DNA from: a virus | IMG/VR virus record: IMGVR_UViG_3300025646_000255 | Location: 1 to 27,737 of that record | Strand: one strand, 5' to 3' | DNA length: 27,737 nt | Shown here: positions 3,038 to 25,617 of the stretch, one piece after another | How the letters are laid out: every line of letters starts with the position of its first letter | Numbering within the stretch: position 1 is the first letter of the stretch | Made by a program: the position numbers and the translations under genes | Notes under the pieces: model-generated | The model's input: only the letters and a program-made list of their open reading frames with translations | What the model was told of the DNA's origin: nothing | Databases searched by the model: none

Positions 3038-3047
3038 ATATTTATAA
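3038..3047 (+). promoter_or_regulatory. TATTTATA box, candidate late promoter
   Basis: ATATTTATAA sits 3 bases before the ATG at 3051. The same box precedes five other gene groups in the window. TATTTATA is the reverse complement of the T4 late promoter box TATAAATA. If it were a -10 element, transcription would begin at or within the start codon. The promoter role is an inference. Confidence 0.4.
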
Positions 3048-5162: not shown

Positions 5163-5247
5163 GGAGAGATGGCAGAGCGGTCGAATGCGGCGGTCTTGAA
5201 AACCGTTGACTGTCAAAGGTCCGGGGGTTCGAATCCCTCTCTCTCCG
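5163..5247 (+). tRNA. tRNA-Ser (anticodon TGA)
   Basis: Acceptor GGAGAGA/TCTCTCC is fully paired. Anticodon stem GCGGT/ACCGT has loop CTTGAAA, anticodon at 5197-5199. The variable arm TTGAC-T-GTCAA marks it as a class II tRNA. T-loop TTCGAAT, discriminator G. It lies 5 bases after tRNA-Thr. Confidence 0.97.
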
Positions 5248-5274
5248 CCGCCAACTGAAGACAGAAGAAGAATG

Positions 5275-5313: not shown

Positions 5314-5347
5314 AAACCCGAGTGTGAGCTCGGGTTTCTTCTTTCTA
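5314..5347. terminator. Strong bidirectional intrinsic terminator
   Basis: AAACCCGAG (5314-5322) pairs with CTCGGGTTT (5329-5337) around a 6-base loop. A T-rich run (TCTTCTTTCT) follows on the + strand, and an A-run precedes it, giving a U-run on the minus strand. It lies between the + strand tRNA array and the convergent minus-strand gene 5360-5827 and would end both transcripts. Confidence 0.9.
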
Positions 5348-5359
5348 TATTAATATTAT

Positions 5360-5827
5360 TTAAGGTATAACAGTACTATAATCTTGGAACCAATTTGATT
5401 GATCAAATCTTAATTTACATTCTGATACTGTTGTACATCCCACTCCGTTTGCTGGTGGTCCTGCTCCTGCTCTATCAATAGGATTACCATCAACATCATA
5501 ATTTTTTAAAGCATAATCACAAGCAGCTATAAAAGCAGCGTCTCCTTTTGAAGGTACTCCTCCTAATGTGGTAGCCATAAATTGAGGTTGGTCTGTTGGA
5601 GGATTTCCTGCTCCACCTGAGTCTTTTGCATTAGGTAAAGCTAAAGTAAAATAAGAAGCTGATGGTGGACCAGCATAAAACAAAGTATCAGTAGTTGTTT
5701 GAGAAACAGTAAAATTCCAAACTCTACCTGCAATTTGTCTTCCAATATAAAAACTACCTGTTTGGGTTGTATTTGCTGGAGCTGCTCCATCTAAATTAGG
5801 GGCGTATGTTATAGCTAATTGAGACAT
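5360..5827 (-). CDS. Unknown 155-aa protein, only minus-strand gene in the window
   Basis: I do not recognise this family. The product is unlike the charged helical small proteins around it. It is poor in charge and rich in Thr/Ala/Gly/Pro, with beta-type segments (SFYIGRQIAGRVWNFTVSQ; ASYFTLALPN) and three Cys, at about residues 103, 129 and 136. There is no signal peptide or membrane helix. Composition resembles a virion surface, decoration or fibre-type protein, but that is inference only. Codon use (AGA, TTA, CCA, ACA, ATA) matches the phage, so it is not a recent host acquisition. It is inserted between tRNA-Ser and tRNA-Arg and is oriented against everything else. It ends on the shared bidirectional terminator and must have its own promoter in the 59 bases between it and tRNA-Arg. 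It could be a moron-type gene. Confidence 0.72.
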   Translation of the reverse strand: MSQLAITYAPNLDGAAPANTTQTGSFYIGRQIAGRVWNFTVSQTTTDTLFYAGPPSASYFTLALPNAKDSGGAGNPPTDQPQFMATTLGGVPSKGDAAFIAACDYALKNYDVDGNPIDRAGAGPPANGVGCTTVSECKLRFDQSNWFQDYSTVIP

Positions 5828-5886: not shown

Positions 5887-5960
5887 GTTCTCGTAGCTCA
5901 GCTGGATAGAGCAACTGCCTTCTAAGCAGTAGGTCATTGGTTCGAATCCAATCGGGAATA
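5887..5960 (+). tRNA. tRNA-Arg (anticodon TCT)
   Basis: Acceptor GTTCTCG/CGGGAAT (two G-T pairs), D-arm AGCTC...GAGC, anticodon stem ACTGC/GCAGT with loop CTTCTAA (anticodon 5921-5923), T-arm ATTGG-TTCGAAT-CCAAT, discriminator A. It reads AGA, the prevailing Arg codon of the phage. It lies downstream of the divergent minus-strand gene, so it needs a separate promoter from the first four tRNAs or read-through. Confidence 0.97.
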
Positions 5961-5961
5961 C

Positions 5962-6346
5962 AAAGGAGTTCTTTGACATAATAAAAGAAAGGAAAAAATT
6001 ATGGAAATTATTTTAGCTTTTGGTTTGGGAGTGGTATTAGTTATTAATATTGTAATAGTTAATATGGCTCTAAAGTCAAATAAACAAGTTAACGAATTAA
6101 ATGAATTTAAACATATTATCAGTGATAATGTTAAAGATATCCATACTGATTTAATTAGTATTGAAGATCGTTTTTATAGCGAGACAGATAAAATTAATGG
6201 TAAAATTGATTCTCGTGTTGATAAACTAAATGATGTTTTGATTAGAGAAATAAGTGAAACAAATCGTAAAGTAGAATTTTTAAGAAAATCTCTTGGAAAG
6301 GATTACTTTTAATTAAATTAAGTTAAACCCGTTATTGAACTCCTTT
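5962..6346. repeat. 10-bp inverted repeat flanking the 6001 gene
   Basis: AAAGGAGTTC (5962-5971), directly after tRNA-Arg, is the exact reverse complement of GAACTCCTTT (6337-6346), directly before the next tRNA. The arms enclose the small gene at 6001. They could pair in the primary transcript and aid excision of the flanking tRNAs, or mark an insertion; neither is proven. Confidence 0.5.
6001..6312 (+). CDS. Small membrane-anchored coiled-coil protein
   Basis: 103 residues. An N-terminal transmembrane helix (about residues 3-24, Ile/Val/Leu rich) is followed by a long charged helix with heptad-like spacing. No family is recognised. It lies between two tRNA genes, with an A-rich leader (GGAAAAAATT before the ATG) and no Shine-Dalgarno motif. 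The same layout, one TM helix then a coiled coil, recurs in the proteins at 6505, 6770 and 10249. Its job is unknown; a scaffold at the inner membrane or a lysis-related role is possible. Confidence 0.7.
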   Translation: MEIILAFGLGVVLVINIVIVNMALKSNKQVNELNEFKHIISDNVKDIHTDLISIEDRFYSETDKINGKIDSRVDKLNDVLIREISETNRKVEFLRKSLGKDYF

Positions 6347-7807: not shown

Positions 7808-8632
7808 ATGTTATTAAAGGTTGGCTCAAGAGGCGAAGACGTAAAAAAACTTCAGGAAAAATTAGGAACTCCTGCTGATGGTATCTTCGGTTCAGGTACA
7901 GAAAGATTAGTTAAAGAATGGCAAGCTAAGAATGGTTTAGTAGCTGATGGATTAGTAGGTAAGGGTACATGGGGTAAAATGTTTGGTGATGAACCAGCAC
8001 CTGCTCCTATTATTATTCCACCTTCAGAATTTAAATTAGATGCTTTAAAAGGGCATGTTCCTGATAATGTAATAGCTCAAATCCCAGATACAGCTGCTAA
8101 ATTCAATATTACAAATCCATTAAGATTAGCTCATTTCTTATCACAGTGTGCTCATGAATCGGGTAATTGGAAAGCTGTTTCTGAAAATTTAAATTATTCA
8201 GCTGATGGTTTAAATAGGATTTTCCCTAAGTATTTTAAAAATGCTGGTAGAGATGCTACTCAGTACGCTCGTAACCCTGAAAAGATTGCAAATATTGTTT
8301 ATGCCAATAGAATGGCTAATGGTGATACTGCCTCAGGTGAGGGATGGAAATTTAGAGGAAGAGGATATATCCAATTAACAGGAAAAGGAAATTATACTAA
8401 GTTTGATAAAATGGTTACTGAAAGTGTTTTAGATAACCCTGACTTAGTAGCTACTAAATATCCTTTAATGTCAGCTGCATTTTTCTTTGACTCAAATAAC
8501 CTTTGGTCCATCTGTGATAGAGGATCAGATGATGGAACTGTTACATCAGTTACCAAAAGAGTTAATGGAGGAACACACGGTTTAGCAGATCGTATAAAAC
8601 ATTTTAAACTGTATTATAACCTCCTAAAATAA
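7808..8632 (+). CDS. Endolysin: PG-binding domain + GH19 glycosidase
   Basis: 274 residues. Residues about 3-58 form a PG_binding_1 domain (LKVGSRGEDVKKLQEKLG, ADGIFGSGT, LVADGLVGKGTW). A Pro/Ala/Ile linker (62-72) follows, then a GH19 chitinase/lysozyme-like domain (about 85-272). The catalytic region AHESGNW gives E117 as general acid, and ENLNYSA gives E126 as the likely second acid. FRGRGYIQLTGKGNY (182-196) is the family signature. It cleaves the peptidoglycan glycan backbone to release progeny. There is no signal peptide, so it needs a holin, in line with the membrane proteins just upstream. It is the last gene of the lysis operon, and hairpins follow its stop. Confidence 0.96.
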   Translation: MLLKVGSRGEDVKKLQEKLGTPADGIFGSGTERLVKEWQAKNGLVADGLVGKGTWGKMFGDEPAPAPIIIPPSEFKLDALKGHVPDNVIAQIPDTAAKFNITNPLRLAHFLSQCAHESGNWKAVSENLNYSADGLNRIFPKYFKNAGRDATQYARNPEKIANIVYANRMANGDTASGEGWKFRGRGYIQLTGKGNYTKFDKMVTESVLDNPDLVATKYPLMSAAFFFDSNNLWSICDRGSDDGTVTSVTKRVNGGTHGLADRIKHFKLYYNLLK

Positions 8633-11267: not shown

Positions 11268-11603
11268 ATGTCACAATTTGATAACGTAGTCTTTGGTAAG
11301 AAAAAATTTTCTGATATTTTAGAAGAAATTTATACTAACCAACAGAAAAAGGATAAACAAGTCTCTGCTCTTATAAATGAGCTAAAACCTCTTATTTCCG
11401 ATATTGGTGATGCTACTTTAGTAGTTCCTTTAATTAAAGAATATATGGAGATTAGTGTTAAAAATGATGACTTATTAATTAAAATGGCTGCTTTAGCTCA
11501 ACGAGCTATGAACACTCAAGCACCAGATGGTTCATTAACTATCTCAGATGAGGAAAAAGAACAACTATTAGCAGCAATGAATGATCTTAAAGGGAAAAAA
11601 TAA
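11268..11603 (+). CDS. Small helical protein, first gene of structural cluster, unknown
   Basis: 111 residues, almost all helical, with an N-terminal FDNVVFGKKKFSDILEEIY segment, a Lys/Gln-rich helix and a hydrophobic middle (ATLVVPLIKEYMEI). No catalytic motif or membrane helix. Proteins of this kind start virion blocks in related flavobacterial-type T4-like phages, as far as I recall. Whether it is a virion part, a chaperone or an assembly factor cannot be seen. Its stop overlaps the next start (TAATG), linking it to the spike protein. Confidence 0.65.
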   Translation: MSQFDNVVFGKKKFSDILEEIYTNQQKKDKQVSALINELKPLISDIGDATLVVPLIKEYMEISVKNDDLLIKMAALAQRAMNTQAPDGSLTISDEEKEQLLAAMNDLKGKK

Positions 11604-12892
11604 TGTTTGCTAGTAATAGTTTATTTAGAACCATTGTACAAGAAAGTCAAAGACTTGAACGTAATGGTACTTTTACAATTACCCCTGTAAGAGTAAAATA
11701 TACTTTTCTTAATCTAGAACAAACAAAAAAAGACTACCCTGAAATATATGCTAAGTATGGCGAAGACTTTGCTTTAAATGGAATTCTATTTGATTCAATT
11801 ACTGCCCCAACTCCAAATACTAAATCTAAAAATTTAGATTATTATATATTTGCTAAACCTTTATTTCCTAATTTCAGACAAGTTCCTCTTGTTAATGAAA
11901 TAGCTTATGTAATAACATTACCATCAGTTAATTTACAAGACCCAAGTTTTATTAACTTAAATGATCAAGAATTTTATTACTTTCTTCCTATAAATCTTTG
12001 GAATAGTGTTCATAATAATGCCTTACCTAATCCTTTAGATACAACAACTAAAACACCCTCAGAACAAAAATCAATACAACAAATTGAAGCAGGTTCTAAA
12101 ATAAAAGTAACAGATGGAGTTAATGATATTGATTTAGGAGAAACATTTGAAGAACAAGCTGATATTAAAAATTTACAACCTTTTGAAGGTGATGTAATTT
12201 TTGAAGGTAGATGGGGTCAATCCTTTAGATTTGGTTCCACAGTAACTGGAAGTAATGGATTGCCTTATTTAGGTAACCAATGGTCTGATAAGACTTTGCT
12301 AGGTAATCAAGGCGATCCTATCTTAATTATAAGAAATGGACAACATAATGATGGTAAAGAAGCTTGGAAACCTATATTAGAAGATATTAATAAAGATCCT
12401 GCTTCTATCTATATGGGATCAACCCAAAAAATCCCATTAACTCCAGCGGCTAGTTCTTATGAAAGTTATTATTACCCTCCTACAAACCCTAAAGAATATT
12501 CAGGTAACCAATTAATTCTTAATTCAGGTAGAGTAGTCTTAAACTCAAATAATGATCATATATTACTTTCATCTAATAAGTCTGTAAATTTAAATGCTGT
12601 TGAAAGTGTAAATATAGATACTAAAGATTTTATTATTTCTTCAAATACTCTTTTAGGAGGAAAAGATGCTACAGAAGCTTTATTAAAAGGAAATACAACT
12701 ATAGGAATATTAAATGAGGTAATAGATAATATTCAAACGTTATCTGATACTTTACAAACTCTAATCTCCCAACCAGCTGGTACTAATTTTGCTACTTTAG
12801 CTGCTAATGCAGGAGCTGTTTCAAGAAACTTAACTTCATTAAAAAATGAATTAACTAATAAAACATTATCAACTAAAAGCTTTACAATATAA
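11603..12892 (+). CDS. gp5-like baseplate hub/spike protein without lysozyme domain
   Basis: 429 residues. The N-terminal half has beta-rich segments like an OB-fold hub domain (about 25-150). A block GDVIFEGRWGQSFRFGS (about 195-212) and GDPILIIRNGQ follow. Residues about 300-355 form alternating hydrophobic/polar strands (QLILNSGRVVLNSNNDHILL ... KSVNLNAVESVNIDTKDF) typical of a trimeric beta-helix spike. A helical tail ends the protein. This is the build of the T4 gp5 membrane-piercing spike, but the lysozyme domain is absent and there is room for none. The block EGRWGQSFRFGS is known to me from baseplate proteins of marine T4-like phages. Overlaps both neighbours by TAATG. Confidence 0.78.
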   Translation: MFASNSLFRTIVQESQRLERNGTFTITPVRVKYTFLNLEQTKKDYPEIYAKYGEDFALNGILFDSITAPTPNTKSKNLDYYIFAKPLFPNFRQVPLVNEIAYVITLPSVNLQDPSFINLNDQEFYYFLPINLWNSVHNNALPNPLDTTTKTPSEQKSIQQIEAGSKIKVTDGVNDIDLGETFEEQADIKNLQPFEGDVIFEGRWGQSFRFGSTVTGSNGLPYLGNQWSDKTLLGNQGDPILIIRNGQHNDGKEAWKPILEDINKDPASIYMGSTQKIPLTPAASSYESYYYPPTNPKEYSGNQLILNSGRVVLNSNNDHILLSSNKSVNLNAVESVNIDTKDFIISSNTLLGGKDATEALLKGNTTIGILNEVIDNIQTLSDTLQTLISQPAGTNFATLAANAGAVSRNLTSLKNELTNKTLSTKSFTI

Positions 12893-14427
12893 TGGCTTTA
12901 CCAATAAATAAAGATATCGCCCTTCAAATAGCTAAACAAAAAGCAAAAGAAGCTATAGCTCAAAAAGCTGCTAAAGCTGCTATGGAACAAGCTAAAAAAC
13001 TTAGAGAAGCTAAAACTTTACCTAAACCTGAAGGAGTTATTGATATTAAAGCATTATCTAAAACAGTTAGAGCATCACAACCAGATGATCAAAAACCAAA
13101 AGGTTTAGCTAAATTTGGTAAACTTATAACTGATAATGGTTTACAATTAGCTCAAGCTGCCTTACCAGCGGCTAAAGCTTACGCTGTACAATTAGCTATA
13201 GATACAGCTTCAGAAAATCTTCCAGATGTATGTCCTAGTCAAGAAATAATAGATTCTATTATAACCCCATTAACTAATTTAATAGAAAGTATAAATTCAA
13301 CAGCTACAATTACTCAAGATATAAATAAATTAATGCAAGATGTATCAACAGGAGTAACAGTTGTTTCTACTACATCAACTATTCTTAATGCCTTAATTCC
13401 TGGATTAACAACAGCAGCAGATGCTTCTCCTTTAGCCCCAGGTTTCTTAGTTTCAGCTATTGATAAAATTGATTATGTTAATAAAAAAATAATTTTTAAA
13501 AATGATGGTACTCCTAGATTACCTGAAATTATATCAAATGTAGGTAGTGTGACTATAGCTACAAGTTTAGTATCTTTTTATTTAAAACAAGTAAAAGATA
13601 TATTAGATAAAGTAATAGCTATTATTAAAAAATGTTCTCCTAGTTCTACTCTCCCTGAATTAAATGCTGAAGTTATTTCTTTATCTAAACAACAAGAACA
13701 ATCAACAGCTAACCAGGATAATGTCTATAAAGGATTTTTAATAAAAATAGTTGAGGTTAAGTTTAATGAACAATTAAACCAAAGAAAAGCAGTAGCATAT
13801 AATGGTAATGGTATTCCTGTATTAGAAACTGAACTTTCATTTACTACTAACACTCAAACTTTAGTTAATGATTTAAAAAAGATAATTGATGAATCTGGTT
13901 TAATTGGAGATTATCAAGCAACTCCTCAACCACCAGCAATTGATCAAGACTTACTTCCAGATTCAGGTCTTGAGAATGACCAAGTTAGATTAAGTGTTTT
14001 AGATACTAGAATAGCTGCTAATCAAAGTAAAGTTGATGATGAATATAAGAAATTCTTAGCATTAAATAAAGAATTACCTATTTCACCTCCTAATTATCCT
14101 GCTGTCATTTCTACACTTAATATTGGTACTGTCACAGGCCAATTTAATACTTTTGCTAATGAAGTACTTAATGAAGTTAATTATAGTTTTTATGCGTATC
14201 GTGATGGTCAGCAAGTTGAAGAATTCCGTTATTCAGAGCAAGAAAGAGAATCAGCAAATAAAATAATACCTGAATTAAAACAAAAATTAAATACTATTAG
14301 ATCCCTTATTGATAATATTAATTCTTTTAAAGGAAATAAAGGAGTAATAGAAGGAACAGCTGTAGCTGTAGATATAAACACACAATCATCATTTGCTCTT
14401 CCTACACCTTTAAATCCAAACCCGTAA
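12892..14427 (+). CDS. Unknown 511-aa structural-cluster protein
   Basis: No family is recognised. Residues 1-50 are an Ala/Lys-rich helix (IAKQKAKEAIAQKAAKAAM). Residues about 95-250 contain long, weakly hydrophobic helices with Ala/Ile/Thr/Ser and a Gly/Pro-rich turn (LIPGLTTAADASPLAPGF), which may be membrane-interacting. The C-terminal half is charged and helical, with a beta segment (YKGFLIKIVEVKFN). It sits between the spike protein and gp25. The Ala-rich helical build and baseplate location would suit a hub-associated, tape-measure-like or effector protein delivered with the tail tip. This is a guess. Overlaps the spike gene by TAATG. Confidence 0.7.
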   Translation: MALPINKDIALQIAKQKAKEAIAQKAAKAAMEQAKKLREAKTLPKPEGVIDIKALSKTVRASQPDDQKPKGLAKFGKLITDNGLQLAQAALPAAKAYAVQLAIDTASENLPDVCPSQEIIDSIITPLTNLIESINSTATITQDINKLMQDVSTGVTVVSTTSTILNALIPGLTTAADASPLAPGFLVSAIDKIDYVNKKIIFKNDGTPRLPEIISNVGSVTIATSLVSFYLKQVKDILDKVIAIIKKCSPSSTLPELNAEVISLSKQQEQSTANQDNVYKGFLIKIVEVKFNEQLNQRKAVAYNGNGIPVLETELSFTTNTQTLVNDLKKIIDESGLIGDYQATPQPPAIDQDLLPDSGLENDQVRLSVLDTRIAANQSKVDDEYKKFLALNKELPISPPNYPAVISTLNIGTVTGQFNTFANEVLNEVNYSFYAYRDGQQVEEFRYSEQERESANKIIPELKQKLNTIRSLIDNINSFKGNKGVIEGTAVAVDINTQSSFALPTPLNPNP

Positions 14428-14444
14428 AAAAATAATTAAAACTA

Positions 14445-14454
14445 ATATTTATAA
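14445..14454 (+). promoter_or_regulatory. TATTTATA box before the baseplate wedge genes
   Basis: ATATTTATAA in the 30-base gap after the 12892 gene, 3 bases before the ATG at 14458. Same core and nearly the same spacing to the ATG as the boxes at 3038 and 6493. Confidence 0.45.
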
Positions 14455-14457
14455 CTA

Positions 14458-14802
14458 ATGAAACCGACAGAATTCAAAAAATTAATTAAAGAAGCTGTTA
14501 GAGAAGCTATCCAAGAAGAATTAAAAGATATTCTCTTAGAAGCAGTTCGTGCCCCAAAATCAGTTGTAACTGAATCAAAAGACACTTATGCTCAACCTCA
14601 TATTGAAAATCCTAAACAACTAACTGCCCAAGAACGCAGAGATATGTTTTCAGGCATTATAGGTGAAATGCAACAAGGAAAACCAGCTACTTCAGCATAC
14701 GCAGGAGATATACAAATGAATAAACCTGTAGATACTATTAATGGAGCTTTACCAGAAGGTAATGTAGGGTTAGACCAGATAATGGCAATGATGAATAAAT
14801 AA
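14458..14802 (+). CDS. Small protein with N-terminal amphipathic helix, baseplate cluster
   Basis: 114 residues. The N-terminal helix (FKKLIKEAVREAIQEELKD, about 5-23) is strongly amphipathic. The rest is likely disordered, rich in Gln/Pro/Asn/Gly, ending in a Met-rich stretch (IMAMMNK). No family is recognised. The layout of a short helix plus a flexible tail suggests a docking or assembly peptide for a baseplate or capsid part. The stop overlaps the gp25 start (TAATG), so it is produced together with gp25. Confidence 0.6.
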   Translation: MKPTEFKKLIKEAVREAIQEELKDILLEAVRAPKSVVTESKDTYAQPHIENPKQLTAQERRDMFSGIIGEMQQGKPATSAYAGDIQMNKPVDTINGALPEGNVGLDQIMAMMNK

Positions 14803-15206
14803 TGGCAATTATAGTTAGAAATAGATTCCCAGTAGATTCTCAAGCTCAAAAAGCTGTTGGAGTTGATATTCCCTTCAATGGACCTGCTGTATTTAAATCT
14901 AATTACTTAACTAGAGAAGCTATAAAAAATAACTTAATAAACTTTTTTTCCACTACCCCTGGTGAAAGAGTATTTAATCCTTTTTTTGGAAGTAAATTAA
15001 AAAGTATAGTTTTCCAAGGATTAAATGATGTTACAAGAGAAAATATTTCTTTTATACTTAATGATGAGTTAAAAAATATTTTTCCATTTGTACAGGTTCA
15101 AGATATAAACTATGTCCCAAATGAGGACTTTAATGAATTAACAATAACTATAACTTATCAAGTAGCTAATTTTGGTATAAATGATACTTTAGAAATAACA
15201 TTATAA
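14802..15206 (+). CDS. 25: Baseplate wedge protein gp25 (sheath initiator)
   Basis: 134 residues, the usual gp25 length. The GPW/gp25 signature is clear: TREAIKNNLINFFSTTPGE (about 37-55) and RVFNPFFGSKL. A C-terminal beta region (ELTITITYQV) ends in LEITL. In T4, gp25 binds the gp6-gp7 wedge core and starts tail-sheath polymerisation. The gp6 gene follows after one base, the conserved order of contractile-tail baseplates. Confidence 0.93.
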   Translation: MAIIVRNRFPVDSQAQKAVGVDIPFNGPAVFKSNYLTREAIKNNLINFFSTTPGERVFNPFFGSKLKSIVFQGLNDVTRENISFILNDELKNIFPFVQVQDINYVPNEDFNELTITITYQVANFGINDTLEITL

Positions 15207-15207
15207 A

Positions 15208-17073
15208 ATGGCAATTAAAAGAGATGTAAAATATTTAAACAGAGACTTTAGTACATTAAGAGACCAATTAGTCACTTATGCTAAAACTTATTTCCCAAAC
15301 ACATATAATGACTTCACCCCAGCCTCACCTGGAATGATGTTTATGGAAATGGCTGCTTATGTTGGGGATGTAATGTCATTTTACTTAGATAACCAAATTC
15401 AAGAAACTTATATACAATACGCTCGTCAAACAGATAATATATTTGATTTAGCTTATATGTTAGGTTACAAACCTAAAGTCACATCAGCAGCTACTGTTAA
15501 TCTTGATTTTTATCAAACTGTTCCTGCTACTACAAGCGGAAGTAATAATGTGACAGTTCCTGATTTTAGTTATTCTCTTTTAGTACCATCTAATACTATT
15601 ATCACCTCAAAAACCAATTCTAACTTAACCTTTATAACTAAGGATAAAGTAGATTTTAGTTTTAGTAGTTCATTAGATTCAACTGAAGTATTAGTATATC
15701 AAACAAGTGGAGGATCTCCAACATCTTATTTATTAAAGAAATCAAGACAAGCTATTTCTTCTACTATAAAAACAACAACAGCTACTTTTACTTCTCCTGT
15801 TCCTTTTAATTATGTTGATATAAATGATACAAATATTATAGGAATATTAGATATTACAGATTCAGATGGTAATCAATGGTATGAAGTAGATAACTTGGCC
15901 CAAGATGCTATTTTTGATACATTAGAAAATACCAACCCAAATGACCCAAATTATTCAGGAAATTCAGATGTACCTAATCTATTAAAAATTAAACAAGTTC
16001 AAAATAGATTTGCTACTCGTTTCTTAGACGCTGAAAATTTCAGAATATTGTTTGGAGCGGGTAATCCTAATGATACAAATGAGGTAATTGTTCCTAACCC
16101 AAATAATGTAGGTTTAGGTTTACCTTTTGAACAAGATAAATTAACAACAGCTTACTCACCTACTAACTTTGTGTTTACAAATACTTATGGTGTTGCTCCA
16201 ACAAATACTACTTTAACTATTAGATATTTAACAGGTGGTGGAGTTGCTAGTAATGCTCCTGTAGGAGATTTAACAACAATTAATACTTCTGCTGTTAGAT
16301 TTATTAACTCAAATATAGCTAATAATACAGTAGCTCAAACATCTTTTGATTCTTTACAAGTAAACAATCCAATAGCTGCCTCAGGAGGTAGTAGTGGAGA
16401 TTCTTTAGAAGAAATTAGACAGAATGCTTTAGGTAATTTCCAAACCCAATTACGAGCAGTAACATCAGATGATTATAATATTAGGGCTTTAAGTTTGCCT
16501 CCTCAATATGGTAGTGTTTCAAAAATATACACAGTAAAAGAAAAAGCAACAAATATTTCTCAAGTTGGTGTTACTTCAACTCTTGATATGTATGTTTTAA
16601 GTTCTAACAATGATGGAACTTTAAAAACAGCTTCACCCGCTTTAAAACAAAACATAATTACTTATTTACAACCATTTAGAATCATTAATGATTCAGTTGA
16701 AGTAAAAGATGCTTTTGTTATTAATATTGGTGTTGAATTTGATATTATTGTTTTACCAAATTATAATAATGATCAAGTTTTAACTAACTGTATTAACTAC
16801 CTAAGAAATTATTTTAACATAGACAACTGGCAAATTAATCAGCCTATTGTTTTAAAACAGTTATTTACGAATTTAGACCAAATTGATGGTGTGCAGACAG
16901 TACAAGCTATCAATATTGTAAACAAAACAAATACAGCTGAAGGGTATAGCAATTATGCTTATGATATAACCTCAGCTACTTATAACAATGTAGTTTATCC
17001 TTCACTTGATCCAATGATTTTTGAAGTTAAATACCCAACAGTAGACATTAAAGGCAGAGTAGTAACATTATAA
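15208..17073 (+). CDS. 6: Baseplate wedge protein gp6 (Baseplate_J-like)
   Basis: 621 residues, close to T4 gp6 (about 660). The N-terminus reads LNRDFSTLRDQLVTYAKTYF and then ASPGMMFMEMAAYVGDVMSFYLDNQ (split over about 12-65), the typical wedge protein start. The middle is beta-rich. The baseplate J-type region with SLEEIRQNALGNFQTQLRAV and TSDDYNIRAL (about 395-430) follows, then a C-terminal domain involved in dimerisation in T4. gp6 dimers form the ring that joins neighbouring wedges. It follows gp25 by one base and precedes the 17075 gene by one base. Confidence 0.94.
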   Translation: MAIKRDVKYLNRDFSTLRDQLVTYAKTYFPNTYNDFTPASPGMMFMEMAAYVGDVMSFYLDNQIQETYIQYARQTDNIFDLAYMLGYKPKVTSAATVNLDFYQTVPATTSGSNNVTVPDFSYSLLVPSNTIITSKTNSNLTFITKDKVDFSFSSSLDSTEVLVYQTSGGSPTSYLLKKSRQAISSTIKTTTATFTSPVPFNYVDINDTNIIGILDITDSDGNQWYEVDNLAQDAIFDTLENTNPNDPNYSGNSDVPNLLKIKQVQNRFATRFLDAENFRILFGAGNPNDTNEVIVPNPNNVGLGLPFEQDKLTTAYSPTNFVFTNTYGVAPTNTTLTIRYLTGGGVASNAPVGDLTTINTSAVRFINSNIANNTVAQTSFDSLQVNNPIAASGGSSGDSLEEIRQNALGNFQTQLRAVTSDDYNIRALSLPPQYGSVSKIYTVKEKATNISQVGVTSTLDMYVLSSNNDGTLKTASPALKQNIITYLQPFRIINDSVEVKDAFVINIGVEFDIIVLPNYNNDQVLTNCINYLRNYFNIDNWQINQPIVLKQLFTNLDQIDGVQTVQAINIVNKTNTAEGYSNYAYDITSATYNNVVYPSLDPMIFEVKYPTVDIKGRVVTL

Positions 17074-17074
17074 A

Positions 17075-18280
17075 ATGGCAGTATATAAAATTTTCCCGTC
17101 TAAAGATACAACCTTATATTCATTATTTCCTAATATGAATACTGGGTTAGATCCCATTATGGAAGCTACCCAAACTTCCTTTACTACAAATGAACCTAGT
17201 CCCCAATCAAGCAGATTTTTAGTCACTTTTGATAGTACTGAAATAGAGGATGTATTGGAAAACAAAATGGGAGTATCTGCTTCAGCCCAATTACAAGATA
17301 CTTCAAGTTATGAAGTTAATTTACAATGTTTTATTTCTACAGCTACAGGTGTTGATATTAATCCAACAGGAACATTATTAGAAGCTTATTATGTTTCTAC
17401 AAATTGGAGTATGGGTACAGGTCAATATTTAGATGATCCTATTTCAACAGATGGAGCTTCATGGTATTGGGTTAATTATTCTGGTAGCACAGCTTGGACA
17501 ACTGCTGGTTTTCCAACAGGAGTAACAGCTTCTTTTACAGGTTCTAATACAGATAGAGACACTAATCCATATGCTGGTGGTGGAACTTGGTATACTGGTT
17601 CTGCTAATAGTTTATGGGATGCTGATGCTTACCCAATATCTGCTTCTCAAACATTTTCATATTCAACAGATAAAGACTTAAATGCTACTGTAACTAATAT
17701 AATAGGAGCTTGGTATACTGGGGCTATTAGTAATGATGTTTTTAATGGATTTATTGTAAAACAAAATCCTGAATTTGTATTTGATAGAAATTACCAACCA
17801 GAATTAAAATATTTCTCAGTTGATACAAATACTATATATCCTCCTGCTTTACAATTTAGTTGGAGAGATTTTACATGGAGTACAAGTTCAACTATAGCAG
17901 TTTTAGACACATTACCTGCTTTAGTTTCATTAAATGAAAACCCAGGTACTTTCCATAGTCAGAGTGTTAATATTTTTAGAGTTAATGCTGCCCCAAAATA
18001 TCCACCTAGAGTTTGGACTACTTCTTCATGGTACACTACAAATTATTACTTACCAGAAGCATCATACTATGCTATAAAAGACTTAAGTACTAATGAATAT
18101 GTTGTAGAATTTGATACTCAATTTACTCAATTAAGCGCGGATACCACAGGTAGTTATTTTACATTATACATGAATGGTCTCCAACCAGAAAGATATTATC
18201 AAGTATTAATTCAATCAACAATAGGAGGAAATACTATGGTTTATGATGGAGGATATTATTTTAAAGTAATTAATGGATAA
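17075..18280 (+). CDS. DNRLRE-like beta-sandwich structural protein
   Basis: 401 residues. Residues about 5-240 have the layout of DNRLRE-type domains: an opening IFPSKDTTLYSLFPNMNTG, a SRFLVTFD strand, then a Trp-rich 'yWVNYSGSTAW..AGFPTG' segment and Gly/Thr-rich loops. These domains are often found in extracellular beta-sandwich proteins. The C-terminal part (from about 255) has further strands with a YYQVLIQSTIGG pattern. In T4 order, gene 7 would follow gene 6; this protein is too short and differently built, so it is likely a baseplate-attached or fibre-like virion protein. Confidence is good for virion role, moderate for the fold. Confidence 0.7.
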   Translation: MAVYKIFPSKDTTLYSLFPNMNTGLDPIMEATQTSFTTNEPSPQSSRFLVTFDSTEIEDVLENKMGVSASAQLQDTSSYEVNLQCFISTATGVDINPTGTLLEAYYVSTNWSMGTGQYLDDPISTDGASWYWVNYSGSTAWTTAGFPTGVTASFTGSNTDRDTNPYAGGGTWYTGSANSLWDADAYPISASQTFSYSTDKDLNATVTNIIGAWYTGAISNDVFNGFIVKQNPEFVFDRNYQPELKYFSVDTNTIYPPALQFSWRDFTWSTSSTIAVLDTLPALVSLNENPGTFHSQSVNIFRVNAAPKYPPRVWTTSSWYTTNYYLPEASYYAIKDLSTNEYVVEFDTQFTQLSADTTGSYFTLYMNGLQPERYYQVLIQSTIGGNTMVYDGGYYFKVING

Positions 18281-18663
18281 TGGAAAGAATCAATTTAAGA
18301 AGACAAGTTTATGCTAAAAGTGCTTTTGATAATGTCATTAGTACTGACTTCACTCAGTTGACACCTGTAACTCCTGAAGTTCCTCAAACTCAATCTATTG
18401 ATATAAATGAATTTTTTGTCCAATATAATAATATATTCTATGATATACCTAAATTTGGAGAAACAAACTCTCATGAGTACCTTGTAAAAACAAGCGGACA
18501 ATATATTAATTCAACCCAAACAAATGAAACAGTAGAAGCCTTAATTGAAGAAATTAATCAATTAAGACAAGAAAATGCTGATTTACAAAACCAACAAATA
18601 CAAGGAGATTTAACTAGTGTAGGCCAAAGTATAGCTAGTGCTCAACAAAAATTAAGTAAATAA
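18280..18663 (+). CDS. Small structural-cluster protein with C-terminal coiled coil
   Basis: 127 residues. A polar, beta-type N-terminal part with IDINEFFVQYNNIFYDIP (about 46-63) is followed by a coiled coil (about 82-120, TVEALIEEINQLRQENADLQ). No family is recognised. It may trimerise or tether a fibre. Both ends overlap neighbours by TAATG, placing it in one translational chain with the 17075 and 18663 genes. Confidence 0.65.
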   Translation: MERINLRRQVYAKSAFDNVISTDFTQLTPVTPEVPQTQSIDINEFFVQYNNIFYDIPKFGETNSHEYLVKTSGQYINSTQTNETVEALIEEINQLRQENADLQNQQIQGDLTSVGQSIASAQQKLSK

Positions 18664-21600
18664 TGAATAAAGTTAGACCAATAGATCCTAATACTCTTAA
18701 TTATCAAAATATAAGTACAGAGGATGCTAATTTATTTGATTCTTTTGAGATCACAAGTTTATTTAATCCTACTCAGGATGTTGTAGAATATTATGTTTAT
18801 GATCTTAATAATGAGTTAATATATCAAGACTTAACTTTTAACAATTGGTCAAATGTAGAAGATCCATCTTTAGCTTCTACTACCCCTGAAACAAATAATA
18901 CAGGATCTACTTTAGATGCTGAGTCAAATCCTAATATAGCTCAAGTATCAACAGTAAATTTAGATCCAATTCAAGACTTACAAAATGTAGGTTTAGATTT
19001 TGGTAAAGTAAAGTCAATTTATAATTTTGTAACTTATAGATTAAATTCAGATCCAAATAATGAATATTTTATTTCTGAAATATCCTCAGATAGAACTGAG
19101 TTAAGATTAAAATCAAACTTTATTTCTGAAGCTAGTTTACAAATTTCATTTGAACAATTTCAAACAGACTTTTTAGACTCAACTGAGTTTGATGAGTTTT
19201 ATTTAAACTTTGGAGATAATAAATACGTTGTAGCAGTTAACGCAGCTATAGACACTGATACTTTATTAATTAAGTTATATGAACCTTTACCTCAAGAATT
19301 TGGAGTAAAAAATACAGCTTATATTTTAACAAAAAACGGAGAATCAGTAGCTTATGAAGTTGAATTTGATGATTTTGTCCTTGAAGACACATCAATTCAT
19401 ATTGCTCCTCCTAACATTAATTTAGAATTATTAAATCAAATTAGTCCAGCTTCAACTTACAAAAGTTATACAGACATAACAGCTACTGACTTATCTGGTT
19501 CTTATAATCAATTAATAAATTTTATTTCAGGTTCAAATATTGGAATCCCATTAAATGTTAATTATACTGATTATTCTAATTTTGTTTACTTCTCTTCAGC
19601 TAAACAAAGATTAGATAATTTTATAACTAAATTAACTAATATTTCTGCCTCTCAAGCAGATTTAAATATTATATATAGTCAAATTACAGGTTCAACTTCT
19701 GGTTCTTCTACAGTAGTAGCTAATAAAATTCTTTTTGAAAAACAAATAGAAAATGAGATATCTACTTTTGATCCTTATGAACAGTTTCTTTATTACCAAA
19801 CAGGTTCAAAATCATTCCCTAAAACCAATAGTACTCAACCTTATACTTTATATGATGTAAATAGTTCTACAGCTGAACAATGGTATGCTACTCAATCAAT
19901 AACAGCTTCAAATTATGATGCTAATAACCAAAATTATCTTTACTGGTTAATTCCAGAATATTTAAGATCTGATTCAACTAATAATAATTATTTCTTATAC
20001 ACAGATATGATTGGTCAATTATTTGATCAATTATGGTTATATACTAAAGAATTTACAAGCAAATTAGAAGCATATCCTGGTTTAGATATTGGTATACCTT
20101 CAGATATGGCTGCTAAAGTTATTGAATCTTTAGGTATTAAAATTTATTCTAGTAATTTCACTACCCAAAACATATATAATTCATTATTAGGTTATTCTCC
20201 AAGTGGTAGTATTTTATTACCTACAGGAAGTAAATTAGTAACTAACTATGTTACTTCTTCTATTGATGATCAGTATGTTCCTACTATTAGTGATTATCAT
20301 AAATTAACATATAAGAAAATTTATCATGCTTTACCTTATTTGTTAAAAACAAAGGGTACAGTTAATGGTTTAAAAACTTTATTAAACATATTTGGTATTC
20401 CTGATACTATTTTAAGGATATATGAATATGGAGGTAAAGATAAAAACTTTAATACTTGGGATAGTTGGCAAAATGAGTTTAACTATTCTTATTATACTAG
20501 TGGTTCCTATTTTATATCTTCATCTTTTGTATTAAATGGAGATTGGAATAGTGCTAATAACACTCCTGGCGCTGTTGAATTTAGATTTAAAACAACAGGT
20601 CTTCCAACTGATGAAGGATATTATTCTCAAAGTTTATGGAGTGCAGATGATGGAGCAGGAGCTGGTGTAGCCTTAATATTAAGATATACAGGTTCAGGAT
20701 ATACATCAGGTTCATATTCTGGTTCAATTCCTGACACTTATAACAAATATGCTTTATTAGATTTTATTCCTGATGTAAGTGACACTACTACCTCAGCTAG
20801 TGTTTATTTACCTTTTTATGATGGAGGATGGTGGTCTGTATTAGTTAATAGTGGTAGCTCTACTTTTGATTTATACGCTAAAAATAAAATATATTCTGGC
20901 TCAGATGGAGATATATTAGGATATCAAGCTAGTTCTTCTGTAACATCAACTTCAACTCCTTGGAGAGGTTCTGAATTTTCATATTTTGGAACCGCTTCTG
21001 TTGGACCGGATGCTAAAACATTCTCAGGATCATTCCAAGAAATTAGATATTACTCTACAGCATTAGGCGAAAATGCATTTGATGCTTATGTAATGAATCC
21101 TAATTCAATAGAAGAAGATGATTACCTAGCATTTAGAGCATCTTTAGGAGGTGAATTATATACATCATCACTTTCAATTCATCCTAAAGTAACAGGATCA
21201 TGGGTTACTACTTCATCTTTTACTTCAGATAGTGATTTTTATTTAGAAAATACTTCAAGCTTTGTTGTTAATAGAGAATATATTTTCTTTGATCAATTTG
21301 CTGTTGGTATTCAAAATAATGTTTCTAATAAGATATATAATCAGGATTTGGTTCTTCCATTCTATGATTCTTCATTTAATAACATACCACCAAATACAGT
21401 TTTATCTTCAGACATTGTAACACAACAAAACTATCCTATAAGTCAAAGTTATACTGAAGATGTAAACTATGCTGAAATTGGTTTATCACCTCAAAATGAA
21501 ATAAATGAAGATATAAATTCTTCAATTGGATACTTTAATATAGGAAATTTAATAGGTGACCCAAGACAAATATCTTCATCAGCTGAATCATATCCTGATT

Positions 21601-23840
21601 TAGATGTTTTAAGAGATACTCATTTCGCTAAGTATACAGCCAATTATAATTGGACTGATTATCTTAACTTAATAGCTTATTTTGATAATTCTTTATTTAA
21701 AATGTTAAAAGATTTTATTCCTGCTAGAACATCTCTAGCTTCAGGAGTAATCATTAAACAACATATTTTAGAAAGAAATAAATATCCTGTTCCTCAATTA
21801 GATACTTACACTACTACTTCTTTTTACAGTGGTAGTTCTTGGAACTCACCTTTAGGAGCCCAAAATATAACTTACTCTAGTTCTATTCTTACTAACTATG
21901 TTACTGGTAGTTCAGGTGGATCAGTATTCAATTTAGGAGGCCAAACACAATCTTTAGGACCAGGTTTTAACATTGTTCCTATAACTCAAAGTTGGTATGG
22001 TGATAATAATTCAATGAGTGGTTCTGTACCTTATACAGCCTCTTATCAATATGAATTTTTTAATGGACAATATAGTGGATCTAATATTGTAGTATCTGAT
22101 GGAAGTTTAAGTGACTGTATGGTTAATATAGTTGAAGTTTACAGTACAGCCTCTGTTGGTAATAACACTAGAAATGTAGATGGTATTCCTGTCAGTCCTT
22201 TTATTAATTCCCAAGTTGGACTCCAAACAAAGAATAATAGATTAAATTTTAATATAAATGTTGATAAAACATATTATATAAGTTTTGACATGATCACATA
22301 TGCTGATGATGATATTGGAGGTACAGCTCAAGCCCAATTAAAAGATAATATTGGAACTGTTTTTTATACAAGTCCTACATTTAATCCCGGAGATACAGTC
22401 TCTATATCTCAACTTCAAATTAATAATCCTCTTCAACCTTTATATTTTTATATTAACACAGATGTCTGGGATTTAGGTGTTCAAGTTACAAATATAGTTT
22501 TATATGAATCTCAATTAAATGACACTAGTGGAGATTGTGAACCATTAGTGAATAATGTGTTAGTGAATAGACCTAATCCATATTATATGGATTTAGATTT
22601 TTCAACTAATCCTTATATAGCAATTAACCAACAAAGTGTATTAACAGGTAGTGCTACACGTTTTGCCATTCCTCAATCAGATTATACAACATTAAAACAT
22701 GCTGGACCTAGATATTTTGGTTCTAGAACTATTGCTCCTGATTTTGGCAAACCAGTATTTAAAAATCCAGCTCAATTACCTTTTAGAAACTCAATTCAAG
22801 TTTTAGGAAATACTGATTTGTATCAAGGTCTTAGAGATGGAACAATAGATAAAAATACTTTATCAGGATCATTATATAATACAGGTTCACAAGAATCTAA
22901 TGTTGAAAATTATGCTGAATATTTCTGTTACTTTAGTAACATAACTTCTTCAGCACCAGAATATCCTTCAGGTAGTAATTTAAACTTAACTTATATTATA
23001 GATAAAGAAGGAAACGCTTATGGTTTAAGTAATCAAAATAATGATTCACAACAAGAAAATGATTTCTTGTATATAATTTCTTCTCTATATCCAGCAGGTA
23101 CCCAACCTAAAATTATTCCTGTTAGTGGAAGTAATACTACATCAACAGATACTATAAGTAATTTTACACTTGTAGAAGGAGGAGCTAGATATCAAACTAT
23201 TTTTGCTAAAACAGGAAGTGGAGGAAGTTTTGGAGCTTTTTGGTCAGGCAGTAATTCATCTCCTGTATATGTTCCTTCTTTTCATTCCCAAAGTACTTCT
23301 ACTTTTGATGATACAGGATCAATTTTTAAACCATGGTTATTACCATTATTAACATTTGAAGACCCAACTTCAGGATCAATAAGTAACTATGATTTTGGAT
23401 TCTTAAATGTTTATAATCCTAATACAGACACAATAAATGCTGATGGATATACTTTACCATCAAATACTTTATTTCCTCTTCAAAAGTATGATTTTATTAG
23501 AATAGCAGATACAGGTTCATCTCCTTCATCTTCATTAGACTCAACTTTTGATGCTTTAGGTTTATACCAAATTAAAACTATATATACAGGAAGTACTGTT
23601 CCTGTTACAACTTCAAGTTTAGAAGTAGTACCTTTTATAAACGGCTCAACATATGAAGTGACATCAGGAACTATTGATCCTAGTTATCAAAGATTTAGAG
23701 TATTTAGAAGAGTACCTTCTCAAACAAACGCTATAATAGGACAAGAAATTTCTGGATTAAATGAAGGATTATTAATACCTGCTAATTATGATCCTAAATT
23801 AAATCCATTAGACTTAGCTAGAAATGCAGGAATTATATAA
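18663..23840 (+). CDS. Giant baseplate/tail protein with lectin-like insertion
   Basis: 1725 residues, the largest gene here. Residues about 430-590 hold a tail-protein core: LFDQLWLYTKEFTSKLEAYP and then KKIYHALPYLLKTKGTVNGL and LLNIFGIPDTILRIYE. The KGT..GL...L..G pattern is that of P2 gpI-type tail proteins and of baseplate wedge proteins. Residues about 630-800 look like a concanavalin-A/LamG sandwich (VEFRFKTTGLP ... FQEIRYYSTALGE). Later parts are beta-rich with many short TGS/SGS turns and ends with IPANYDPKLNPLDLARNAGII, resembling other phage tail-protein ends. By position it replaces T4 gp7 (the long wedge core protein). Carbohydrate binding by the lectin-like part is inferred, not shown. 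Confidence 0.8.
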   Translation: MNKVRPIDPNTLNYQNISTEDANLFDSFEITSLFNPTQDVVEYYVYDLNNELIYQDLTFNNWSNVEDPSLASTTPETNNTGSTLDAESNPNIAQVSTVNLDPIQDLQNVGLDFGKVKSIYNFVTYRLNSDPNNEYFISEISSDRTELRLKSNFISEASLQISFEQFQTDFLDSTEFDEFYLNFGDNKYVVAVNAAIDTDTLLIKLYEPLPQEFGVKNTAYILTKNGESVAYEVEFDDFVLEDTSIHIAPPNINLELLNQISPASTYKSYTDITATDLSGSYNQLINFISGSNIGIPLNVNYTDYSNFVYFSSAKQRLDNFITKLTNISASQADLNIIYSQITGSTSGSSTVVANKILFEKQIENEISTFDPYEQFLYYQTGSKSFPKTNSTQPYTLYDVNSSTAEQWYATQSITASNYDANNQNYLYWLIPEYLRSDSTNNNYFLYTDMIGQLFDQLWLYTKEFTSKLEAYPGLDIGIPSDMAAKVIESLGIKIYSSNFTTQNIYNSLLGYSPSGSILLPTGSKLVTNYVTSSIDDQYVPTISDYHKLTYKKIYHALPYLLKTKGTVNGLKTLLNIFGIPDTILRIYEYGGKDKNFNTWDSWQNEFNYSYYTSGSYFISSSFVLNGDWNSANNTPGAVEFRFKTTGLPTDEGYYSQSLWSADDGAGAGVALILRYTGSGYTSGSYSGSIPDTYNKYALLDFIPDVSDTTTSASVYLPFYDGGWWSVLVNSGSSTFDLYAKNKIYSGSDGDILGYQASSSVTSTSTPWRGSEFSYFGTASVGPDAKTFSGSFQEIRYYSTALGENAFDAYVMNPNSIEEDDYLAFRASLGGELYTSSLSIHPKVTGSWVTTSSFTSDSDFYLENTSSFVVNREYIFFDQFAVGIQNNVSNKIYNQDLVLPFYDSSFNNIPPNTVLSSDIVTQQNYPISQSYTEDVNYAEIGLSPQNEINEDINSSIGYFNIGNLIGDPRQISSSAESYPDLDVLRDTHFAKYTANYNWTDYLNLIAYFDNSLFKMLKDFIPARTSLASGVIIKQHILERNKYPVPQLDTYTTTSFYSGSSWNSPLGAQNITYSSSILTNYVTGSSGGSVFNLGGQTQSLGPGFNIVPITQSWYGDNNSMSGSVPYTASYQYEFFNGQYSGSNIVVSDGSLSDCMVNIVEVYSTASVGNNTRNVDGIPVSPFINSQVGLQTKNNRLNFNINVDKTYYISFDMITYADDDIGGTAQAQLKDNIGTVFYTSPTFNPGDTVSISQLQINNPLQPLYFYINTDVWDLGVQVTNIVLYESQLNDTSGDCEPLVNNVLVNRPNPYYMDLDFSTNPYIAINQQSVLTGSATRFAIPQSDYTTLKHAGPRYFGSRTIAPDFGKPVFKNPAQLPFRNSIQVLGNTDLYQGLRDGTIDKNTLSGSLYNTGSQESNVENYAEYFCYFSNITSSAPEYPSGSNLNLTYIIDKEGNAYGLSNQNNDSQQENDFLYIISSLYPAGTQPKIIPVSGSNTTSTDTISNFTLVEGGARYQTIFAKTGSGGSFGAFWSGSNSSPVYVPSFHSQSTSTFDDTGSIFKPWLLPLLTFEDPTSGSISNYDFGFLNVYNPNTDTINADGYTLPSNTLFPLQKYDFIRIADTGSSPSSSLDSTFDALGLYQIKTIYTGSTVPVTTSSLEVVPFINGSTYEVTSGTIDPSYQRFRVFRRVPSQTNAIIGQEISGLNEGLLIPANYDPKLNPLDLARNAGII

Positions 23841-23858
23841 CAAAAATTAAAACTAGAT

Positions 23859-23868
23859 ATATTTATAA
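23859..23868 (+). promoter_or_regulatory. TATTTATA box upstream of the 216-aa structural gene
   Basis: ATATTTATAA, 15 bases before the ATG at 23884, in the 43-base gap after the giant gene. Spacing allows a normal short leader. A separate late promoter here would allow higher output of the following gene. Confidence 0.5.
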
Positions 23869-23883
23869 TAAAATTACACAACA

Positions 23884-24534
23884 ATGGGATACTTAAACAA
23901 TTCAGTAGTAACCGTAGACGCTATTTTAACTGATGTAGGACGTCAACTTTTATCTCAAAACAATGGTTCTTTTAGAATTACTCAATTCGCATTAGCTGAT
24001 GATGAAATTGATTATACTCTTTACAATCCAAATCATCCTTCAGGCTCTGCATTTTATGGAGAAGCAATTGATAATATGCCTTTATTAGAAGCTTTCCCTC
24101 AGGCAAGCCAAATAATGAAATATAAATTAACAACTTTACCTCGTGGTACAGCTAGAATACCTATCTTAGCTATTCCAAGTAATGTTGGTTTGAAACAAGG
24201 TCAATCACAAGTAATTACTCCTCAAACATTAAACTATACAGGTGGTAATACATTTGAAGCTTCAGGTTACACATTCACAATTTCTGATGTTAGATTGTTC
24301 TCAACATTTGAAGGTGTAGGTATTAACACACCAACCGCTACTAATTTAAATACAACAACAACTTTAGGTACTAGTGTTTCTAAAACAGTTATTGGTACAA
24401 GTTTAAATTTAAGAGCTACTACTGTTAACACATTATTCTCAACTCAAAATACTTTACAAGCAACATTAACTATTGAAGGTAGAGATTCTGGAGCCCGTTC
24501 AATTATTCCTATTTCTGTAACTAAAGTATCTTAA
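23884..24534 (+). CDS. Conserved structural protein (216 aa)
   Basis: 216 residues. The N-terminal half has GYLNNSVVTVDAILTDVGRQ, then FALADDEIDYTLYNPNHPSG, YYGEAI-like FYGEAIDNMPLLEAFP and KYKLTTLPRGTARIP. This block is one I associate with virion proteins of flavobacterial-type T4-like phages. The C-terminal part is a Thr/Asn-rich beta domain. The first residues, with VDAILTDVGRQLLS, resemble the start of many phage tail-tip and fibre connectors. Codon use is slightly more CGT/AAC-rich than neighbours, which with its own promoter box suggests strong late expression. Exact role in the virion is unknown. Confidence 0.72.
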   Translation: MGYLNNSVVTVDAILTDVGRQLLSQNNGSFRITQFALADDEIDYTLYNPNHPSGSAFYGEAIDNMPLLEAFPQASQIMKYKLTTLPRGTARIPILAIPSNVGLKQGQSQVITPQTLNYTGGNTFEASGYTFTISDVRLFSTFEGVGINTPTATNLNTTTTLGTSVSKTVIGTSLNLRATTVNTLFSTQNTLQATLTIEGRDSGARSIIPISVTKVS

Positions 24535-24544
24535 TATATAAACC

Positions 24545-25612
24545 ATGTCATTTAAAAGATTAGAAGCAGATGATTTTGTAATAAGCGCGGACGCTATATC
24601 ATCAACTTGTTGGACTACAGGTACTCCTACATTAACAGAATTTTATACTTCCTCAGTTCAAGAAAATGGTAGTTCCGGGGATTTTTATACAAATGTTTAC
24701 CAAACATCCTCTTTACTATCTGGCTCAGCTGTTCAATTTGCTATAGCCTATGGTAATTCAGTAGGTAGTGGTAGTGCCAACTATAATAATTTAGTTGATG
24801 GGGCCTCACCATCATCAACCATTTATGGACAATACCAGATATTAGTAGTTGGAGATGAAAATACAGACTTTATATTTGGTGGAGTTACAGGTTCTGAATT
24901 TTTTGCTTTACCTGTAGAAAGAGCTTGCTATAAAGAATCATTATTTTTAGGTTCTTTAACTTTAACTCTTACAGGTTCTTCAGGATCAATTCAATTAACA
25001 GATAATAGTAATTATGTTTCTTCTACTTTATTTAATGAAGCAGGTAGAGTATATCAATTAATTACAGGATCAAATGGTACTAGAGCTAACATTTCTACAA
25101 GAAATACTTCAGATGGTTACTCTGCTAAATCAGGATCATATGGTTGGTTCTTACCTGATATTGGAACTATTTTATTAAACCCTATGGCTTTAGCTGATTA
25201 TCCTATTAGTGGAGGTATTGGTTTAGCTTATAGTGGTTCTTATGGTTGGGGACCTGAAGTAGCTATAGCTACTGGTTCAACAGCTCCTAATGTTTCTCCT
25301 AATAGATCATTCTATCAAGCTATTAGCGCTTCAGCAAACTTCCAATTAAATTCTCAAGAAACTATTTCTTCTGATTTTGTATTTGTAAGACCAAGAAGTT
25401 CAGAATTTAACTACTCAGAAAATCCAAGCTTTATATCAGGTTCAACTGGTGAGGTATTATATAGTTCATTTATTAATAATCCTACAACTTATATTACAAC
25501 AGTAGGTTTATATAATGATGCTAACGAATTATTAGCGGTAGCTAAACTTTCAAGACCATTACCAAAAACGTTTACAAAAGAAGCATTAATCAGGGTTAAA
25601 TTAGATTTCTAA
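24545..25612 (+). CDS. Virion protein, paralogue A of the 25618 product
   Basis: 355 residues. The N-terminus (FKRLEADDFVISADAI) and C-terminus (SSEFNYSENPSFISGS ... YITTVGLYNDANELLAVAKL) both align with the next protein, although the middles differ. Ser/Gly/Thr/Tyr-rich beta structure with many SGS/TGS turns is seen throughout. The ending KLSRPLP ... IRVKLDF is like a tail or neck-fibre attachment domain. I infer that A and B are copies that form parts of one fibre or collar structure. It follows the 216-aa gene by 10 bases and is in the same late transcript. Confidence 0.7.
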   Translation: MSFKRLEADDFVISADAISSTCWTTGTPTLTEFYTSSVQENGSSGDFYTNVYQTSSLLSGSAVQFAIAYGNSVGSGSANYNNLVDGASPSSTIYGQYQILVVGDENTDFIFGGVTGSEFFALPVERACYKESLFLGSLTLTLTGSSGSIQLTDNSNYVSSTLFNEAGRVYQLITGSNGTRANISTRNTSDGYSAKSGSYGWFLPDIGTILLNPMALADYPISGGIGLAYSGSYGWGPEVAIATGSTAPNVSPNRSFYQAISASANFQLNSQETISSDFVFVRPRSSEFNYSENPSFISGSTGEVLYSSFINNPTTYITTVGLYNDANELLAVAKLSRPLPKTFTKEALIRVKLDF

Positions 25613-25617
25613 AATGA

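Follow-up and report, generated by a model that had tools for sequence, protein, structure and literature searches.

A lone antiparallel gene in the tRNA cluster of a T4-like phage belongs to a family with remote similarity to a fibre-type N-terminal domain

Phage morons include capsid decoration genes, as set out in a published account (PMC4378225). The lone gene described here resembles morons in being a single coding region with, by sequence, a promoter-like element and a terminator, and in its patchy occurrence, but may differ from them in composition, since at codon position 3 it matches structural genes of the same phage. It lies in a 27,737-nucleotide stretch of DNA (the window, meaning the whole stretch analysed) that is part of a T4-like phage. 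The closest cultured relative, found through the neighbouring DUF932 gene, is Flavobacterium phage vB_FspM_immuto (Immutovirus; 43.6% amino acid identity), and a Bacteroidota host is therefore likely. The window is like immuto in the DUF932 gene, the baseplate genes and the nearly uniform direction of its genes (in the immuto region, 2 of 82 annotated genes have the opposite direction), but a homologue of the lone protein was not found in annotated phage records by tblastn.

A preliminary description of the window, made from the sequence alone, had drawn attention to one minus-strand gene within the tRNA cluster. We recovered this gene as an ORF that runs from an ATG start to a TAA stop and occupies exactly the positions listed in Table 1. 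Counting non-overlapping ORFs of at least 50 aa, the window has 31 on the plus strand and two on the minus strand; these two amount to 645 bases together, 468 of which belong to the lone gene. The surrounding cluster comprises six tRNAs, all on the plus strand. A PHROGs scan of ten window proteins confirmed two baseplate wedge proteins and one endolysin, and the other seven gave no PHROGs match at E 0.001.

Table 1. Positions of the lone gene and of the features next to it in the window
Feature	Coordinates	Strand	Basis or remark
Lone gene, 155 aa, candidate stand-alone fibre-type (FAYNTG-like) domain protein	5360..5827	-	ORF, homologues, pN < pS, profile match
tRNA-Ser(TGA), left neighbour	5163..5249	+	also on the left in the five further contigs that share this site
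tRNA-Arg(TCT), right neighbour	5887..5961	+	also on the right in the five further contigs that share this site
Promoter-like element ATATGTATAA	5840..5849	-	12 bases upstream of the ATG; one mismatch to the lineage's ATATTTATAA
Hairpin terminator common to the tRNA array (+) and the lone gene (-)	5314..5337	.	terminator scan, folding, stem kept in aligned relatives

Pattern scans of IMG/VR revealed homologues of the lone gene in eight other contigs, making nine with the window; an IMG/VR scan with the window protein alone as query returned no homologue, and further pattern scans added none. The eight distinct proteins are all 147-157 aa long and mostly 43-71% identical (one pair, 90%), and their alignment has 33 invariant positions, among them two cysteines six residues apart. 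A chance ORF is ruled out by the nine contigs, by the conservation of both start and stop across the homologues and by a pN lower than pS.

The lone gene is antiparallel to its neighbours in all nine contigs, and it takes up three positions, each near the tRNA cluster: between tRNA-Ser and tRNA-Arg (six contigs including the window), between the gene of an ATPase that we label clamp-loader-like and an ORF of about 250 aa (two contigs), and adjoining tRNA-Met (one contig). In the related contig G040 (176,311 bases), 199 of 203 non-overlapping ORFs of at least 50 aa are on the strand opposite the lone gene, which is the only convincing minority-strand gene; the other three ORFs on its strand are only 56-76 aa long. 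Why a single gene should keep this orientation at three positions, in genomes that otherwise run almost entirely one way, is a clear puzzle. Records found through the DUF932 neighbour, many of them fragments, carry the lone gene in 2 of 36 cases and show none in the remaining 34, and it is present in 5 of the 39 records searched, many likewise fragmentary. It is thus not a gene conserved at this site in all relatives: five other contigs carry it at the window's site and three elsewhere near the tRNA cluster. We found no second copy in the related records (one of one in G040; 39 records; 8,947 ORFs) and no clean empty site, the relatives without the gene having rearranged tRNA clusters.

Each of the six contigs that have the lone gene at the window's site has ATATGTATAA upstream of it, and ATATTTATAG, ATATTTATGG and ATATTTATAA take its place in the other three, so that only L051 has the exact ATATTTATAA there and the others use variants. 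Across ten contigs the exact ATATTTATAA occurs 94 times and never off the main coding strand, and in 79 cases an ORF start follows within 40 bases; 40 permuted ten-mers, used as controls, had a mean of 35 copies with 4 near starts, the best control being the motif shifted by one base. The genes for tail tube, tail sheath and portal are preceded by ATATTTATAA. When variants are included, there are 133 matches, 99 of them near starts and eight on the minority strand, and half of these eight belong to the lone genes of the window, G040, G001 and G039; variants without the exact motif are tied more weakly to gene starts (20 of 39). In the window ATATNTATAA has six copies over both strands, each 3-19 bases upstream of a gene start, against an expected 1.35 per strand. 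Plus-strand copies of the ATATTTATAA-type element upstream of gene starts were noted in the window at 3038, 6493, 11240, 14445 and 23859.

The T4 late consensus is given as TATAAATA in PMC1524935. The complement of ATATTTATAA contains this T4 sequence, and because the match is on the complementary strand, the element is not simply the T4 promoter. We read ATATTTATAA, from its distribution, as the late promoter of this lineage, and the lone gene probably has a late promoter of its own. It may be a hallmark of late genes throughout the uncultured T4-like phages.

At the opposite end, a hairpin is located between the tRNA array and the stop codon of the lone gene. A terminator scan calls it on the plus strand; on the minus strand the stem is longer and is followed by T's. 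Its folding z-score is about -4.4 on either strand, with 0 of 200 shuffles as good, in keeping with the shared bidirectional terminator proposed earlier. With its own promoter-like element, this terminator and its scarcity among the DUF932 records, the lone gene fits the independently regulated accessory gene of the preliminary description.

The low charge noted in that description was also borne out, charged residues making up 12.9% of the lone protein compared with 18.6-34.7% in 19 window genes outside the tail module. Over the whole family charge is 3-13% and GC3 is 0.08-0.15, as in large tail genes, and among 183 ORFs of G040 the lone gene comes 6th from the bottom in charge and 8th from the bottom in GC3. 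In the window the gene has a GC content of 37.4% versus 30.7%, and its GC3 of 0.096 is within the tail-gene range. Both GC and charge also follow from the Gly/Pro/Ala/Asn/Thr-rich composition of the protein.

Direct searches gave no significant match for the lone protein in annotated phages by tblastn (at best isolated short matches, E 0.2 or worse), in genome contigs or in the PDB, and nothing significant for the family in Pfam or PHROGs. One PHROG, phrog_26502 ('virion structural protein'), recurred for three members at E 1.2-3.5 and was not relied on. Two AF2 models were of low confidence (mean pLDDT 37 and 48), and the better one, with two helices and two very short strands, did not confirm the beta-type protein that had been proposed; a BFVD search with this low-confidence model gave a best E of 0.98. 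By hydropathy, neither a signal peptide nor a membrane segment stands out, the highest 19-residue value being about 1.0. In literature titles and abstract openings we did not find the lone protein, or the fibre domain described below, treated.

A remote relationship was found by profile-profile comparison. The least charged proteins of G040 include LamG proteins with an N-terminal part of ~110 residues that seems co-linear with the lone protein. When the domain of one of these was compared by phmmer with 8,947 ORFs, the best other matches were lone proteins, although weak (E 0.1-4.4). One scan of viral contigs detected 129 relatives of this domain, with loci returned for 78 of the 129, and the resulting alignment holds 55 distinct sequences besides those of G040. 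We call the domain FAYNTG-type, a label of our own for a domain with no Pfam model hit. It is widespread and is joined to LamG, to PT-rich repeats or to other C-terminal parts (IMG/VR loci L102-L179); divergent variants occur in G040 (14982-16604 and 16896-17888) and perhaps in G005. The fibre domains had no tblastn match at E 0.01 in annotated phages, and their profile had none in the PDB.

HHalign matched the lone family to the fibre domain with Prob 95.3, E 2.3e-8 and a score of 52.2 over 114 columns, and a repeat with a 35-row alignment gave Prob 94.4 and E 9.1e-8. The match to this RPFAYNTG...WWNGPDEDLGYVI...GYWTS domain is co-linear over 108-114 columns and starts at residue 1 in both, and both occur in a late-type or structural context; the lone family differs in that it has not kept the RPFAYNTG and WWNGPDED motifs and is only ~21% identical. 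In controls, 60 column shuffles, which keep composition, scored at most 22.6, the reversed profile scored 13.4, and 42 tiles taken from other families, including many low-charge tail proteins, scored at most 21.3. Judged by these comparisons, the similarity to the superfamily of the fibre N-terminal (FAYNTG-type) domain is significant for the family, but not for the window protein by itself, which compared alone with the fibre domain gave E 0.0085 and Prob 4.7. The lone-family profile has a low diversity (Neff 2.0). An HMM of the fibre domain clearly finds only the L041 and L042 lone proteins (E 1.7e-4 and 1.2e-3); the remaining ones rank among unrelated ORFs, those of the window and G001 being outside the best 30. 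Domains B and C of G040, which are more divergent, match the fibre domain (E 1.5e-6) but not the lone family (E 0.064).

Laminin_G_3 is present in five of the seven fibre-like relatives scanned, and four of the seven match phrog_8510 ('virion structural protein'). More protein follows the domain in all 48 complete fibre proteins (the shortest has 233 aa), whereas all eight lone proteins end right after it; the lone proteins are therefore relatives of the domain and not fibre proteins. As only one of 43 fibre genes with both neighbours known is antiparallel to both, standing alone and running backward are special to the lone family. The promoter-like element precedes only 3 of 55 fibre genes with the FAYNTG-type domain. 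The 'unknown family' of the preliminary description thus still holds for Pfam, PHROGs and the PDB, and the profile searches it proposed for the 155-aa protein succeeded only with the family, which they tie to a remote one. A family lacking a significant match in these three databases thereby gains a homology-based identity, through a widespread unnamed fibre domain.

Comparison with G001 in 60-base steps gave DNA identities of 0.90-1.00 to the left of the lone gene and 0.48-0.70 inside it; identity is 0.85 where the gene starts and rises to 0.97-0.98 past that point, before a second dip inside ORF 6001-6312. The lone gene has a pN of 0.31 and a pS of 0.56, compared with a pS of 0.09-0.22 in nine nearby genes. 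The drop in identity begins and ends with the gene. These data point to the exchange of a diverged allele, for which recombination would be a plausible route. Hypermutation was considered and rejected, as synonymous and nonsynonymous sites are both diverged across the gene. Most genes before 10249 are 89-100% identical to those of G001; the lone gene, with 51%, ORF 6001-6312, with 75%, and the endolysin fall outside this range. Identity is 68% for ORF 10249, 77% for ORF 10527 and 30-82% for the twelve tail/baseplate genes from 11268 to 26670, and it is back to 97% in the next gene. Judged from this pattern, the tail/baseplate genes are exchanged as a module between the window and G001. The baseplate genes of G001 and G039 are likewise diverged, with flanks less alike. 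The lone gene thus shows the divergence of a tail gene, though about 5 kb away from the tail module.

Two other loci also vary. ORF 6001-6312 is small, has an N-terminal hydrophobic stretch and is unusually diverged between the other contigs as well (38-61%). The endolysin is swapped at one site among closely related contigs (window 7808-8632; L002 7550-8431; L041 2899-3780, minus strand; L042 2810-3691, minus strand): the window and G037 have a chitinase-like type (phrog_181/14712), and G001, G038 and G039 have another, which we take to be amidase-like, with identities of 31-34% between types and 77-92% within.

On balance, if by a modest measure, we favour the reading that the lone gene encodes a late, accessory and exchangeable protein of the virion surface that consists of a single fibre-type domain, and forms its own transcription unit. 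It would be an accessory one-gene unit in a T4-like phage whose host is probably one of the Bacteroidota, transcribed from ATATGTATAA upstream of the ATG against the neighbouring genes, with a transcript ending at the hairpin common to the tRNA array. Its product would be a single domain like the N-terminal part of longer LamG/lectin and PT-rich fibre-like proteins, without the fibre, and would most likely be a small decoration or adhesin exposed on the tail, baseplate or head of the particle. Diverged alleles would be swapped between conserved flanks among related phages, as would the tail module and the endolysin. The family's profile homology to the domain that begins LamG fibre-like proteins and the structural-type charge and GC3 argue for the surface or virion-type protein suggested earlier. 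The moron-type interpretation thus survives in its accessory, self-regulated and surface aspects, and in the sequence we found nothing in favour of its anti-host option.

The next most probable reading, though considerably less so, is a late protein that is not part of the particle, namely a free domain released at lysis or on the cell surface that blocks receptors or excludes competing phages. The stand-alone domain, its own late-type element and the variable alleles suit such a protein, and the same sequence data fit it, but its hydropathy profile suggests neither export nor membrane insertion and its composition is that of structural genes. A shade less probable is that the fibre-less domain is an exchangeable accessory which competes for or caps the sites where the phage's own LamG fibres dock, and that the one-gene cassette, antiparallel at three positions, perhaps uncouples its dose from the co-directional transcripts. 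We are somewhat more doubtful still that the lone domain occupies these docking sites so as to limit or tune fibre number. The lone protein does correspond to the N-terminal region of fibre-like proteins, which may be their docking part, and G040 has the lone gene together with three fibre-like proteins with the same or a related domain; however, the docking role of the domain is only putative, and the lone and fibre domains share only the low identity given above.

A moron factor that works within the cell against the host or its defences seems improbable. An accessory, antiparallel and rapidly varying gene with its own promoter-like element could encode one, but the late-type element, the fibre-domain homology and the structural composition argue against it, and there was no Pfam or PHROG match to a host-takeover family. 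That the profile match is a composition effect and the lone protein an unrelated late protein is very unlikely, since shuffles and tiles of other families scored so low and the match is co-linear, even though both sides are poor in charge, the lone family is small and the window protein alone is not significant.

Other genes were observed at the tRNA clusters of these phages. Genes of 630-644 aa adjoin the cluster in L007 (5930-7864), L037 (5104-7038) and L051 (3016-4908, minus strand), and the C-termini of their products look to us like Bacteroidota type IX secretion sorting domains. A related phage contig has a predicted tmRNA gene (L035, 3421-3793) upstream of a 23-tRNA array.
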